From contig MEPU01000004.1 in NCBI GenBank assembly GCA_001771815.1, positions 558,001 to 622,000 on the forward strand: a DNA stretch of 64,000 bases. The letters run 5' to 3'. The notes under the pieces are model-generated. The model saw only the letters and a list, made by a program, of their open reading frames with translations. It was not told where the DNA came from and made no database searches. Both the position numbers and the translations under genes were made by a program. Origin of the DNA: Bdellovibrionales bacterium RIFCSPHIGHO2_01_FULL_40_29. Its GTDB lineage: Bacteria; Bdellovibrionota; Bdellovibrionia; Bdellovibrionales; Bdellovibrionaceae. Positions 54,699 through 59,425 of the stretch are shown in pieces (position 1 is the first letter of the stretch; every line of letters starts with the position of its first letter).

Positions 54699-55160
54699 AT
54701 GTCTCGATTCTTCGCCAGTTGTTTTCTATTTTTATTATTCACGAACGCAGCCTATAGTTCTTCATTTGATCTTTGCTTGGAACATGCCGCCAAACAAGAA
54801 CATAAGTTGGACCGACAGGATGGTGTGCAAAATTGTTTTATCAAGAACAAAGCACAACTCAATTCCGAGAAATGTTATCGCTCAATTAAAAAAGTAAACC
54901 TGACCGAAATATCACAAAAAATCAATGAACAGATAAAATCTGTTTGTTTTTATGAGGTCAGCAGATTTAGAACCATAAAATCTTGTCTGGAAAAATCACA
55001 GTTGTTTGAAACAGCAATCAATAAAGATGAAGCAGTTTTTGATTGTTTTGCTCAATTTCAGAATGTTCTTAATCAGCGTCAATGTTTAAATGTGAGCCAG
55101 TATCTCATCTACCCTGCTAAAAAAGAGCATTTAAAAACTCATTGCTTAAATAGCTTCTAA
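54699..55160 (+). CDS. Small secreted protein with two tandem 4-cysteine modules
   Basis: 153 residues from ATG 54699 (GGAG at 8 bases); the longer frame includes non-coding sequence. The signal peptide ends near AAYSS (about residue 20). The mature part has eight cysteines in two homologous modules: Cys26, 46, 59, 83 and Cys96, 116, 129, 149. The first three spacings are identical (20 and 13), and both modules begin C-L-E and carry C-F at the second cysteine and L-N before the third. So it is an internal duplication, probably helical and disulfide-linked. I do not recognise the family. It is the last plus-strand gene before a convergent peptidoglycan hydrolase. Confidence 0.75.
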   Translation: MSRFFASCFLFLLFTNAAYSSSFDLCLEHAAKQEHKLDRQDGVQNCFIKNKAQLNSEKCYRSIKKVNLTEISQKINEQIKSVCFYEVSRFRTIKSCLEKSQLFETAINKDEAVFDCFAQFQNVLNQRQCLNVSQYLIYPAKKEHLKTHCLNSF

Positions 55161-56239
55161 TTAATGGCTAAATGATAATTCTGAATGGGCACTTGCAATG
55201 GAACACCAGCTGGAATTTTTTGATTCTTTGAGATCTTGTTCCAATTCAAATGTGGATTCATTCTTTTAAAAAGTGTGATACTGCCATTATACCATGGCAA
55301 AAGCTTTGACTTCGGCATTGTTCGCCTAAGTTTGTATTCTTTTGTATTGAGTGCCACAGACTTTAAAAGATTTTGTCCAAAAAGTTCTGGTGCACGTCTT
55401 TCAACCTCTAGAGCTGCCAAAAAACAGGCGTAAAAATTTTTCGAGGCAAATCCCCATGTTTTTGTTCGCTCCTCAGATTCAATGAGGTCTTCAAGTTGAT
55501 CCGACTTCGCTTTCACTTTCATTCGCTTAATTCCCGTTAATCCATGATTGTAAGCTGTAATCGCCAATGGCCACGATCCCAGTTTACGATAATTTTGCTT
55601 TAAAATTCGCGCGGCTAATTCTGTCGCATAGACAGGATGATTTCGCTTGTCATAGTTTGCCGTGATATAGCCCTCGGGTTTCGCCACACTGGGCATGATT
55701 TGCCAAATTCCACTGGCACCAACTTTGGACTGCGCCAGAATATTAAATGAGCTCTCAACAAATACTATTCGAGTCAGTTCAATTGGTATTCCATGACGCT
55801 TAAAAATCGCCTCCATCATAGGTAAATAACGTCCCGAAAGAAATAATGCTTTCTGCATTCGATCTTTCAGCCCCATTTGCAGACGAATTTTGCTCACTTC
55901 TGAAATTTTCCATTTTTTAGCGATAGCTTTTCGACTTTTATTGATCTCAGCTTTGATCAATTTACCTTTCATCGAATCATTGAGAACTGAGTTTTGATAA
56001 ATTGACGTTAAATCAACCTCGCCCAGGACAAAATCGGGATCATCGATCATGTGAAAAACACCTTGATGCGTGGTGTACTCCGAGAAAATTTTTCTCCAAA
56101 ATTCAACACGATCTGCCAGCTCATCTGTTGCTGTAAATTTTGATTTTTCAGGCAGCGATGATGTCCATCGAGTCACAGCTGAAAATGAAGTTAATGGTAA
56201 AATCGAGAAAAATAAAATTGTTGATAAGAATTTTTTCAC
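55157..56239 (-). CDS. Lytic transglycosylase (SLT/MltD-like)
   Basis: 360 residues. GTG 56239 is chosen: the N-terminus (MKKFLSTILFFSILPLTSFSA) is then a proper signal peptide, while longer frames run through the dacB end. The Slt fold has catalytic Glu162 in VESSFN, GASGIWQIMP (175-184), YDKRNHP and ITAYNHG, the order of MltD/family 1 enzymes, which cleave glycan strands to 1,6-anhydro-MurNAc. The C-terminal 80 residues include NPHLNWNKI, then PAGVPLQVP, resembling a LysM-like tail without a full motif. The start lies 4 bases past the dacB stop, so the pair is an operon. A role in cell-wall remodelling, or in prey-wall attack if this is a predator, is inferred. Confidence 0.9.
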   Translation of the reverse strand: MKKFLSTILFFSILPLTSFSAVTRWTSSLPEKSKFTATDELADRVEFWRKIFSEYTTHQGVFHMIDDPDFVLGEVDLTSIYQNSVLNDSMKGKLIKAEINKSRKAIAKKWKISEVSKIRLQMGLKDRMQKALFLSGRYLPMMEAIFKRHGIPIELTRIVFVESSFNILAQSKVGASGIWQIMPSVAKPEGYITANYDKRNHPVYATELAARILKQNYRKLGSWPLAITAYNHGLTGIKRMKVKAKSDQLEDLIESEERTKTWGFASKNFYACFLAALEVERRAPELFGQNLLKSVALNTKEYKLRRTMPKSKLLPWYNGSITLFKRMNPHLNWNKISKNQKIPAGVPLQVPIQNYHLAIN

Positions 56240-56243
56240 TCTC

Positions 56244-57632
56244 TTATTGTAATAGAGAAAGTAGTATTTGATCAAAAGCTTCTCGAACAATCGACTCATC
56301 TCGTGGACCATTGTACAGAAACGTATATGTGTATACTTCGCCGTTCTTTCGTCCGGCATAACCCGCCAACGACACCACCGTGTCCAAGTATCCCGTTTTG
56401 CCCCGCACCCAGCCTTGAGTCACAGGCCCCTTCATTCGTTTTTTAAGAGTGCCATCGATACCAGCGATCGGAAGACTTTCTAAAACTAAAGAATAGGTCC
56501 GAAAATCTTTTTTCAATGCGGATAGTATTTCATTTCCTGCGGCGGCTGATAGTCGATTATCCGGAGTTAATCCCGATGGATTTTCAATAATAAAATCTTT
56601 GCTTGTTAAGCCAAGTTGTTCGATCTCTTGACGAATAAGTTCCACACCTTTTTTTAATGTAGCCCCTGATTTCATTTCCTGAGCTGCTAAGGATTTAGTT
56701 AACATTTCAGCCACATAATTATTCGAAAATTTATTCATATCAGCTAAAATTTCAGCCAAGCTTTTGCTTTCAGACACCGCAACAACAACGGCTTTACTCG
56801 GAATCTCGCCGCGTCGAACTTTGCCCTGAACTGAAATTCCACGTTGCTTTAAAAATGATTTCAACTGATTGCCAGACCATATCCCAGGGTCGTCGATACT
56901 TTTATAAATTGGTTTCTCTAAAGCGGATTTTGAAACTTCTCCTGTTACTGTAATTATCTTCTGTGAGTTTGAAATAGACACCGACAAATCTTTCTTAATA
57001 GCTTTAGACACTGTTTTAGTTTGATTCACCAATTGATAGTAGTCGCTCTCGGGATCTAAATACACCATGGCTTTTTCGCCAATACTTTCTGCAGGTCTCA
57101 CAAAAATATTGATTGAATTCCAATTGAAACTTAATCCCCCTACTGGTGAATCATAAGCCCGATCAACACGCACATTTTCTCGGCTTGGATCAAAGCGAAC
57201 CTGATCAAAAATAGAATCATCGATAATAATATCTTTGACGGAAAAAATCTTTGAACGCACAAATTCATTCACTAAAAACCACATTTTTTCGGAAACAAAC
57301 GAGGGGTCACCACCACCCTTGATATAAATATTTTCGTTGTCATACAGCAATTCTGTTCGAAAGCGATGCCCCAATGGTAATCGCTGTAAAATTCCATATG
57401 TCGTTAAAATTTTTGAAACCGACGCCGGCACTTTTAGTGTTTTAGAATTGATTGAATCCACAATTTTTTTATCATTACGAATTTCTATACTGACATGAGC
57501 CCTGTCAATTTTATGTTTTTTCAAAATTTCTTGTGAATTGACGTCCGACTCTTTTCCAAAAGCTGGACTAAAGTTTAATAGCAAGAATAAAAACCCGACT
57601 GTAATGATTGCAAATTTTAAAAGGCATTTCAT
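56244..57632 (-). CDS. dacB: D-alanyl-D-alanine carboxypeptidase/endopeptidase (PBP4, S13 family)
   Basis: 462 residues. The signal peptide ends at SPAFG (about 26). SxxK is Ser71-V-S-Lys74 in PASVSKILT, SxN is in KFSNNYVAE near residue 300, and the KTG box is in VRGKTGYLD near 425. The inserted domain between the first two motifs (about 90-280) is characteristic of S13/PBP4. It removes terminal D-Ala and cuts cross-links in the periplasm. ATG 57632 has no Shine-Dalgarno; a TATACT box ends 7 bases upstream, so the mRNA may be leaderless. It is divergent from lspA with 29 bases between starts and is followed by the lytic transglycosylase. Confidence 0.92.
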   Translation of the reverse strand: MKCLLKFAIITVGFLFLLLNFSPAFGKESDVNSQEILKKHKIDRAHVSIEIRNDKKIVDSINSKTLKVPASVSKILTTYGILQRLPLGHRFRTELLYDNENIYIKGGGDPSFVSEKMWFLVNEFVRSKIFSVKDIIIDDSIFDQVRFDPSRENVRVDRAYDSPVGGLSFNWNSINIFVRPAESIGEKAMVYLDPESDYYQLVNQTKTVSKAIKKDLSVSISNSQKIITVTGEVSKSALEKPIYKSIDDPGIWSGNQLKSFLKQRGISVQGKVRRGEIPSKAVVVAVSESKSLAEILADMNKFSNNYVAEMLTKSLAAQEMKSGATLKKGVELIRQEIEQLGLTSKDFIIENPSGLTPDNRLSAAAGNEILSALKKDFRTYSLVLESLPIAGIDGTLKKRMKGPVTQGWVRGKTGYLDTVVSLAGYAGRKNGEVYTYTFLYNGPRDESIVREAFDQILLSLLQ

Positions 57633-57639
57633 TTTTAGA

Positions 57640-57668
57640 AGTATAGCCGCAGAATACCTGTATGAAAA
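57640..57668 (-). promoter_or_regulatory. Candidate leaderless promoter of dacB
   Basis: Minus strand: TTTTCA (57663-57668), 17 bases, TATACT (57640-57645), then 7 bases to the dacB ATG. The -10 matches the sigma-70 consensus at 5 of 6 positions. The -35 lies on top of the lspA start, so lspA and dacB promoters must overlap or lspA is read from within dacB. Confidence 0.42.
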
Positions 57669-58597
57669 GAAAAGATTGGTTTATTGTTATTGCTGTTTTG
57701 GTTTTTGTTGTTCTGGTTGATCAGTTTTCAAAAAATTGGGCAAGCAATCTGCCTGAGCAATGGTATGGCGCGCTTCATCTCATTCTTATTCATAATCATG
57801 GCGCCATGCTCGGATTATTTTCAGATCTACCTGCCGTTCTTCGAATCGTCACTTTATCTACAAGTGGAGTTTTCCTTTTGAGTATTTACGCCATCATACA
57901 GTACCTCATTCCTGTTCGACTGATGGTTTTGCGAATTGGTTTATCGATTCTAGTAGGAGGTATTCTTGGAAATGTTTTGGATCGAATTCTCTATGGATAT
58001 GTTATTGATTTTATAGCAGTTCAAATTTCTTCTTGGCATTCACCCATTTGGAATGTTGCTGATGTGATCCAATGGTTTGGTTACATTATGATAGTCTACT
58101 CTGTAATCAAACATGGCGAACTTTTATGGCCGGGCAATAATATTCGTAAAGTTTTCTGGGTCAATCGCCGATTTCAGTTAAAATACTCAGCTTTATTTAT
58201 GTCTGTGGGTTTGTTTCTAACTCTAATCAGTTTGGTTTTTTCTTACACCTATTTAAAAGTCACTATTGAAGAAATTAGTGGAAATCCAATACTTGTTGAA
58301 AAATTTTCCACTCCATTTTTGTATTCCTTTTCAGCCTTAGCGGTTACTTTTTCATTCGTTTTATTCTTCATTGGAAAACTGATTTCCCATCGAATTGCAG
58401 GGCCACTTTATGCCTTTGAGCGTTTTTTAAATGAAATACTCGAGGGTAAGGGTCTCACAAAAAATAGCGCAGCCTTGAAACTGCGTGCCGGAGATGATTT
58501 TAAGCACCTCGAGCAACTTGCCGAACAAATTAAAATCAAACTTATCAAAATGAATTCAGAAAAGACTGTGGAAACGATTGAGTACAAAGAAGATTAG
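57662..58597 (+). CDS. lspA: Signal peptidase II fused to a HAMP-like membrane domain
   Basis: 311 residues, about twice the usual 160. Residues 1-155 are a complete LspA: four membrane helices, DQFSKNW, HNHGAMLGLF, GNVLDRILYGYVIDF and WNVADVIQWFG, with the catalytic aspartates Asp116 and Asp134. It removes prolipoprotein signal peptides. The extra part (170-311) has two more membrane helices (about 175-198 and 216-240), followed by HRIAGPLYAFERFLNEIL (243-260) and a DDFKHLEQLAEQIKIKL helix. This resembles a HAMP domain (conserved Pro after the second helix, then the D-x-F/L second helix). It has no kinase or methylation domain after it. I see no frameshift or repeat to suggest an error. The start is ATG 57662; no Shine-Dalgarno. 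Confidence 0.88.
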   Translation: MKRKDWFIVIAVLVFVVLVDQFSKNWASNLPEQWYGALHLILIHNHGAMLGLFSDLPAVLRIVTLSTSGVFLLSIYAIIQYLIPVRLMVLRIGLSILVGGILGNVLDRILYGYVIDFIAVQISSWHSPIWNVADVIQWFGYIMIVYSVIKHGELLWPGNNIRKVFWVNRRFQLKYSALFMSVGLFLTLISLVFSYTYLKVTIEEISGNPILVEKFSTPFLYSFSALAVTFSFVLFFIGKLISHRIAGPLYAFERFLNEILEGKGLTKNSAALKLRAGDDFKHLEQLAEQIKIKLIKMNSEKTVETIEYKED

Positions 58598-58600
58598 AAC

Positions 58601-59425
58601 TTATTTTTCCCAATCCCGAATTTTATTCAGATAGAATCGCTTGCGCTTCATATCCAGCCCACACTCGGCATGTATGTAATCTCCGTCAGGATTTCGAACA
58701 ATGCCATATGGCCGAATCGGTCGCATTTTTGATTTTGTTTGACCACCATCATAAACAATATTCAAAGTTTTTTCATTTCGAATACAATCCGCAAGCATCA
58801 GCAGCTTTTCATCGACACCACTCATGATTCGGTAGTGATCCCATTGCAATACCTTTTTTTGAACTTGCAAAAGTTGCTCTAACGTAACGGACTCTCCCAT
58901 TTTCTCAACACACTTCATAAATACCTGTAGACACGCGTACGCATCATCGTAGGCACGATGAGCGTCTCCGCCCGTTAAGCCGAGTTCTTTCACCAAGGTC
59001 TGCAGCTTATGATTTGTGGTCGTCAATAAAGCCCGCGACAAAAGACTGCTGCAGAAATGTAAATTTCGAGGGAAAATTAAATTACCTTTTTCTATATCTA
59101 AGGTCACAAAACCCAGATCAAATGGGGCATGATGAGCCAATAAAATGCTGCCATCAATAAACTCGCAGAACTTAAGAATCTGATCTTGCATCAGTGGAGC
59201 ATCTGCTACCATTTCATTCGTTATCCCATGAATTCGTATATTTTCTGGCACCAAAGGTTTTGAAGGTCTCAATAAAGTTTGAAACCTTCCCACAATTTGA
59301 CCGTGATGCCATTTGACGGCTCCCAGCTCAATAATTTCAGCCTCTAAAGGATATGCACCGCTCGTTTCTGTATCAAAAGCAACAATGGGGTACTCTGACC
59401 AGGGCATTTGCAAATTAAAACTCAT
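58601..59425 (-). CDS. DEDDh 3'-5' exonuclease with C-terminal WYL-like domain
   Basis: 274 residues. The N-terminal 175 residues are a DnaQ-type exonuclease, with Asp18 and Glu20 (FDTET), Asp103 in HHAPFDLGF, and His156/Asp161 in DAHRAYDDA, the complete DEDDh set. The last 60 residues (LNIVYDGGQTKSKMRPIRPYGIVRNPDGDYIHAECG..RKRFYLNKI, abbreviated) match the beta-barrel pattern of WYL domains, which bind nucleic acid or ligands. A role in repair or RNA turnover is possible. ATG 59425 lacks a Shine-Dalgarno; ATTCTA (rc TAGAAT) lies 6 bases upstream. It converges with lspA, 3 bases between stops. Confidence 0.85.
   Translation of the reverse strand: MSFNLQMPWSEYPIVAFDTETSGAYPLEAEIIELGAVKWHHGQIVGRFQTLLRPSKPLVPENIRIHGITNEMVADAPLMQDQILKFCEFIDGSILLAHHAPFDLGFVTLDIEKGNLIFPRNLHFCSSLLSRALLTTTNHKLQTLVKELGLTGGDAHRAYDDAYACLQVFMKCVEKMGESVTLEQLLQVQKKVLQWDHYRIMSGVDEKLLMLADCIRNEKTLNIVYDGGQTKSKMRPIRPYGIVRNPDGDYIHAECGLDMKRKRFYLNKIRDWEK

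Follow-up and report, generated by a model that had tools for sequence, protein, structure and literature searches.

A conserved LspA–HAMP-like fusion in Bdellovibrionota and its link to lipoprotein-like genes with an atypical lipobox

The window, by which we mean the whole 64-kb stretch of DNA that was analysed, contains a gene that extends a complete signal peptidase II (LspA) by two further membrane helices, followed by a divergent HAMP-like segment. The fusion, here called LspA-HAMP, is conserved, has an intact active site, occurs as an extra LspA beside the housekeeping copy, and is linked to and co-distributed with lipoprotein-like proteins carrying an atypical lipobox. Its distribution and its gene neighbours suggest a role in the maturation of these proteins. 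We put the probability at roughly 55% that LspA-HAMP works as an accessory type II signal peptidase, active in the maturation of a separate class of lipoproteins with the box [FYL][QNT][NQH]C. The wider proposal, that Bdellovibrionota have a second, parallel maturation route in which [FYL][QNT][NQH]C lipoproteins and a dedicated LspA-HAMP are co-inherited and sometimes share one operon, stands in our judgement at about even odds.

The fusion gene and its peptidase domain

The gene lies at 57662..58597 (+). When the sequence was read directly, it formed a single frame of 311 codons plus a stop, with an ATG start and no internal stops. The initial annotation had described one frame running from a complete LspA with Asp116 and Asp134 into two extra membrane helices, and each part of this description held. 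A stop or frameshift between residues 155 and 175 was looked for in independent assemblies and none was found, and the full-length fusion had an intact frame in 57 out of 60 related genomes. It is not an artefact.

The AlphaFold2 model of the full fusion, made with an alignment of 50 homologues (mean pLDDT 84, pTM 0.72), has an LspA fold followed by helices at residues 169–206, 209–260 and 282–305, with a connector before the last. The LspA (Peptidase_A8) domain comprises residues 1–155 (57662..58126, +), with four membrane helices and the strands of the beta-cradle. PF01252 matched residues 13–149 with an E-value of 4.1e-24 and 85.8 bits, against a gathering cut-off of 25, and the core matched the solved LspA structures 5DIR, 6RYO and 6RYP with a Foldseek probability of 1.00 (E 1.5e-6 to 7.1e-6). 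Membrane helix 5 (about residues 175–199; 58184..58258, +) falls within the first of the additional helices and membrane helix 6 (about residues 219–240; 58316..58381, +), which is continuous with HAMP helix 1, within the second; the exact limits of both are estimates.

The codons of the catalytic residues Asp116 (58007..58009, +) and Asp134 (58061..58063, +) were identified in the sequence, and D20, K24, N45, G47, G103, N104, D107, R108, D116, F117, N131, A133 and D134 were invariant among 50 homologues with identities down to 33%. No difference between fused and canonical LspA was seen in the catalytic residues, whereas many residues nearby were invariant only in the fused group. Fixed in fused LspA near the active site are M49, L50, V105 (Tyr in canonical LspA), Q137 (Ile) and W138 (Val). 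Q137 was present in 50/50 fused sequences and W138 in 49/50, while the canonical enzymes had I in 15/15 and V in 15/15 at these positions. Judging from helix periodicity, Q137 and W138 would lie one turn past D134 on the same helix face, which makes Gln137-Trp138 (58070..58075, +) candidate specificity residues. The five residues M49, L50, V105, Q137 and W138 would be the likely cause of an altered specificity of the fused enzyme.

Occurrence, gene neighbourhood and paralogues

In named genomes, including that of B. bacteriovorus strain kdesi, the fusion was found at about 75 loci. It is distributed across the whole of Bdellovibrionia, including B. bacteriovorus, and has a patchy presence in other classes. 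The possibility that the C-terminal part might be missing from relatives did not materialise: the tail residues are constrained as strongly as those of the enzyme, and 21 of 138 were invariant over 30 homologues. Conserved tail motifs include R, N and FQ of the linker, S-H-x-x-A-G-P-x-x-A-F, and R-x-x-D-x-F-x-x-L-E.

The gene neighbourhood is also conserved, with dacB upstream, a DnaQ-like exonuclease downstream and MotAB-like genes further on. In the window, the divergent upstream neighbour is a separate gene for a dacB-type D-Ala-D-Ala carboxypeptidase (56244..57632, −) and the convergent downstream neighbour encodes a DnaQ-like 3'-5' exonuclease (58601..59425, −); both functions were named from reading the sequence. 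Of 73 loci, about 54 had the dacB-type family upstream of the fusion and about 49 had the DnaQ-like family on its downstream side. As listed, the dacB frame (56244-57632, −) and the frame of a lytic transglycosylase (55157-56359) overlap by 116 bases; the true start of the latter gene is probably further in than listed.

Few Bdellovibrionia genomes are without the fusion, and these are mostly fragmented. Neither fusion nor dacB was detected in G010 and G203, and because dacB is missing too, the locus may be absent from those MAGs. The dacB gene of G057 is divided between the ends of two contigs, and that of G026 is followed closely by the end of its contig. In G219, dacB is present and no fusion was seen on the stretch read.

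An ileS–lspA–lgt array is the usual housekeeping setting of LspA. The source genome of the window has three LspA genes, the fusion and two canonical ones, of which one has ileS and an lgt-like gene as its immediate neighbours on either side. Typically, the 60 relatives had one strong canonical match (about 120–150 bits) and one fusion (about 76–97 bits), and some had an additional second canonical LspA (about 90–113 bits). LspA-HAMP is thus an extra LspA beside the housekeeping copy. In an LspA-domain tree (n = 50), all 29 fused domains fell on one side of a branch with support 98/99; those from other classes were inside the same group, some on long branches. The tree traces the fused LspA domains to a single origin. 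The other canonical-type LspA of the source genome (L141 6194-6730, −, on contig C10) adjoins beta-oxidation-like genes, of fadB/fadA type by sequence reading. Second canonical copies of this type occur in part of the genomes and form their own group in the tree.

Neighbouring genes and the atypical lipobox

The canonical lipobox follows the rule [LV](−3) [ASTVI](−2) [GAS](−1) C(+1) (PMC8689077). Outside Bdellovibrionia, the fused gene usually has neighbouring lipoprotein-like genes whose products instead carry [FYL][QNT][NQH]C; the boxes seen were GYNQC, AFNQC, GFNHC, VFQNC, VLQNC, TYQNC and SYQQC, all of which fail the canonical rule. Because that rule is [LV][ASTVI][GAS]C (PMC8689077), boxes of the FQNC and [AG][FY]N[QH]C types are off at all three positions.

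We counted such genes at 20 fused loci outside Bdellovibrionia proper, with unrelated loci of the phylum as background. Genes within three places of the fusion that encode a signal sequence and a Cys with N, Q or H at −1 numbered 20/98, compared to 1/298 in the background (Fisher 2.5e-12, an optimistic value that overstates independence, since the loci are phylogenetically related). Atypical-box neighbours came from 15 of the 20 loci, and none was found at the other five (L131, L229, L231, L333 and L334). In Bacteriovoracia, the fused gene ends a five-gene run that holds two lipoprotein-like genes with the Cys after [AG][FY]N[QH] (GYNQC, AFNQC and GFNHC). In a genome of another class (G316), the fused gene is followed by a VFQNCG gene (...GIFTVFQNCGRT...), and in one of a third class (G287), a VLQNCG lipoprotein-like gene (...LLFVLQNCGVKT...) lies directly before it. 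A Bacteriovorax MAG has a Bdellovibrionia-type fusion directly followed by a TYQNCG gene (...AVLLTYQNCGKKK...); both genes are on one contig, and contamination of the MAG is a possible source of the pair. The mature domains of the linked proteins are mostly unrelated, including NHL repeats, DUF4331, DUF7151 and cytochrome c-like domains, and the feature common to these proteins, as judged from their sequences, is the box.

The full Bacteriovoracia run (L133-L137, L139, L393 and L400) encodes two CxxCH-containing proteins, an RRDFLS protein whose start is Tat-like, and the NQC/NHC lipoprotein-like proteins, with the fused LspA last; it is patchy in the family. Two Bacteriovoracia genomes, G092 and G095, have FNHC lipoprotein-like genes (L398 9426-10604, +, and L399 7826-9040, −) with no fused LspA in the approximately 7–9 kb on either side.

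The co-distribution was also seen at the level of whole genomes. We counted matches to the DNA pattern of [FY]QNC[GS] across 369 genomes, with the same pattern reversed as a control; these are counts of DNA patterns complemented by sampled sites, and the NQC/NHC pattern was left out as too noisy. The 144 Bdellovibrionia genomes, in which the fusion is near-universal, had 1169 matches versus 336 for the reversed control. The corresponding numbers were 276 versus 327 in family f12 (129 genomes) and 156 versus 130 in families f13-f29 (96 genomes), so genome-wide enrichment was found only in Bdellovibrionia. A lipoprotein-like context, consisting of a start, a hydrophobic stretch and then the Cys, was present at 14 of 30 sampled matches in Bdellovibrionia and at 1 of 31 in f12, and that one was a fusion-linked gene. 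Genome G120, with 12 pattern matches against 0 for the control and no strong fusion match, was considered as a counterexample and rejected, as its sampled sites had no lipoprotein-like context. The source genome has no atypical-box protein encoded next to the fused gene, and no [FY]QNC[GS] protein was found within the window; one was confirmed elsewhere in this genome, on G000:C13 (...SGLVVFFQNCSPQQN..., MKLVKTLILIILVSGLVVFFQNCSPQQN...).

These data bear on whether the fusion could be a redundant extra LspA that acts on ordinary substrates, with a tail that merely stabilises or dimerises it and a QNC/NQC link that reflects shared operons of some other function. Such an enzyme would be expected to look as this one does at its active site, which is the same as in canonical LspA, and in some loci the neighbouring lipoprotein does have a canonical box (e.g., solute-binding-type proteins at −1). 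However, at least three classes and several families show this recurrent linkage, the mature domains of the linked proteins are mostly unrelated, and genome-wide enrichment of the motif is confined to the group in which the fusion is general. We consider redundancy unlikely and favour a dedicated peptidase for the atypical-box proteins. Points against a dedicated peptidase are the five loci lacking an atypical-box neighbour, the FNHC genes of G092 and G095, and the source genome, whose single confirmed [FY]QNC[GS] protein is encoded away from the fused gene.

The HAMP-like tail and its possible role

The initial annotation had also called the C-terminus HAMP-like, which was upheld through free-standing relatives and predicted structure but not by a direct match to Pfam HAMP (PF00672). 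That family gave no score against the window protein even at E ≤ 10 and was absent among the families listed for 30 homologues at E ≤ 1. Searches with the tail in Pfam and NCBIfam returned no family, and a sequence search among solved structures gave no match. The connection to HAMP runs through free-standing two-helix proteins of Bdellovibrionota, which are about 150 amino acids long, number up to 9 per genome and mostly have no Pfam name. The fusion C-terminus was homologous to these over its full length (hhalign 99.7%, E 5.5e-27). They in turn matched the HAMP domains of kinases and receptors from the same group (hhalign 96.9%, E 1.9e-10), and their cytosolic part alone matched the HAMP alignment at 94.6%, whereas column-shuffled full-length profiles reached at most 2.2%. 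One free-standing relative exceeded the Pfam HAMP cut-off (28.7 bits versus 25). The fusion tail including the membrane helix matched the HAMP alignment at 66.6%, and the cytosolic half of the tail alone gave no signal against the HAMP profile (1.6%).

When the tail was modelled alone by AlphaFold2 as a monomer (pLDDT 87), the best structural match was WalK (Z 8.6, rmsd 3.1 over 133 residues), and Af1503 HAMP (Z 5.7, rmsd 2.7 over 55 residues) and NarQ were also among the matches; these Z values are modest for helical proteins and come from monomer models only. A membrane helix, AS1, connector and AS2 are all present in the models. The HAMP-like segment was placed at residues 242–305 (58385..58576, +) from the models, profile comparison and structure matches, with AS1 at 242–260 (SHRIAGPLYAFERFL), the connector at 261–281 and AS2 at 282–305 (LEQLAEQI...). 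Since the intermediates match HAMP, one of them passes the Pfam cut-off and the tail model resembles WalK, the tail can be labelled HAMP only in the qualified form of a divergent HAMP-like module, as predicted from profiles and models.

Compared to HAMP (PF00672; WalK, NarQ, Af1503), the tail has the same passage from a membrane helix into AS1, connector and AS2, a conserved AS1 proline and an AS2 that opens with D-[EDQ]-[FY], and it is detectable via intermediates. It differs in falling below Pfam detection, in lacking the DExG glycine and any sensor or output domain, and in being placed behind an enzyme instead of before one. It shares with the free-standing proteins an R..(x)..N..FQ start, the SHR.AGP and R..D motifs and homology over the full tail, but those proteins are not fused to LspA.

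HAMP domains as signal transmitters had led to the suggestion that an envelope or membrane signal, relayed by the HAMP-like segment, might raise or lower lipoprotein maturation. The homology to HAMP via the free-standing relatives, the predicted AS1–connector–AS2 helices and the matches to WalK, NarQ and Af1503 are in line with this. However, helices 5 and 6 are joined almost directly in the model, so there is no periplasmic sensor domain between them, and no output domain follows AS2; a sensor role of the tail was rejected on the first ground, and the idea of signal tuning is weak on both. In addition, the order of parts is opposite to that in receptors, the AS2 motif is divergent, a Pfam score is absent and nothing indicates an envelope signal. 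Signal-regulated maturation thus appears quite improbable, and a dedicated peptidase for an atypical lipoprotein class is better supported. The alternative in the initial annotation, a scaffold that joins LspA to other proteins, may hold. A role outside lipoprotein maturation, in which the QNC cysteine stays unlipidated and the fused protein processes or holds signal-anchored proteins, is very unlikely: although FQNC breaks the lipobox rule at all three positions (PMC8689077) and the source genome has a single confirmed [FY]QNC[GS] protein, the Cys directly follows the hydrophobic stretch and precedes Ser/Thr/Pro/Gly-rich linkers, as in lipoproteins, and the LspA active site is fully conserved.

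For the dedicated peptidase, we infer that LspA-HAMP cleaves the atypical-box proteins, that these become lipidated and that the HAMP-like part has a supporting role. In the simplest model, D116 and D134 would work as in any LspA and the cleft would take a polar −1/−2 pair, with substrates whose −3 residue is aromatic or large and whose −2 and −1 residues are amides, Thr or His. The most likely task of helices 5 and 6 and the HAMP-like segment would be parallel dimerisation or the binding of a related HAMP protein with two helices. A HAMP-type parallel bundle would hold two peptidases together or tie the enzyme to a free-standing partner, so assembling or positioning the peptidase.

The usual view of LspA is of a single enzyme with a single substrate rule, on which lipoprotein predictors are built. 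The fusion and canonical LspA (PF01252; 5DIR, 6RYO, 6RYP) have in common the catalytic Asp dyad, the conserved residues and a fold with a four-helix core, but the fusion differs in its two additional helices and HAMP-like tail, its own tree subgroup (98/99) and its fused-specific active-site surroundings, and in being a second enzyme besides the ileS–lspA–lgt copy, linked to an atypical lipobox. Myxococcus xanthus, also a predatory bacterium with more than one LspA, has multiple paralogues associated with resistance to TA, an inhibitor of LspA; we know of none that are HAMP fusions. A search of the open-access literature returned nothing on an LspA–HAMP fusion, Bdellovibrio LspA or lipoboxes whose −1 residue is Asn, Gln or His. 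The atypical-box substrate class, if confirmed, would to our knowledge be new. Part of the surface proteome of Bdellovibrio and its relatives would then be currently missed, and LspA substrate selection would be directly testable with two paralogues from one cell. The fusion is also a setting for studying a HAMP-like module without a sensor or output domain.

Free-standing HAMP-like proteins were not detected in the source genome. Loci L192-L221 and L142-L151 represent this family, with the motifs FQ, SHRIAGP and R..D. In G019, a free-standing HAMP-like gene (L144 3452-3961, −) lies immediately downstream of the fusion, and its product is a possible partner of LspA-HAMP there. In G287, the fused LspA-HAMP (L222 924-2384, −) is 487 amino acids long and, by eye, has an extra C-terminal thioredoxin/peroxiredoxin-like domain.
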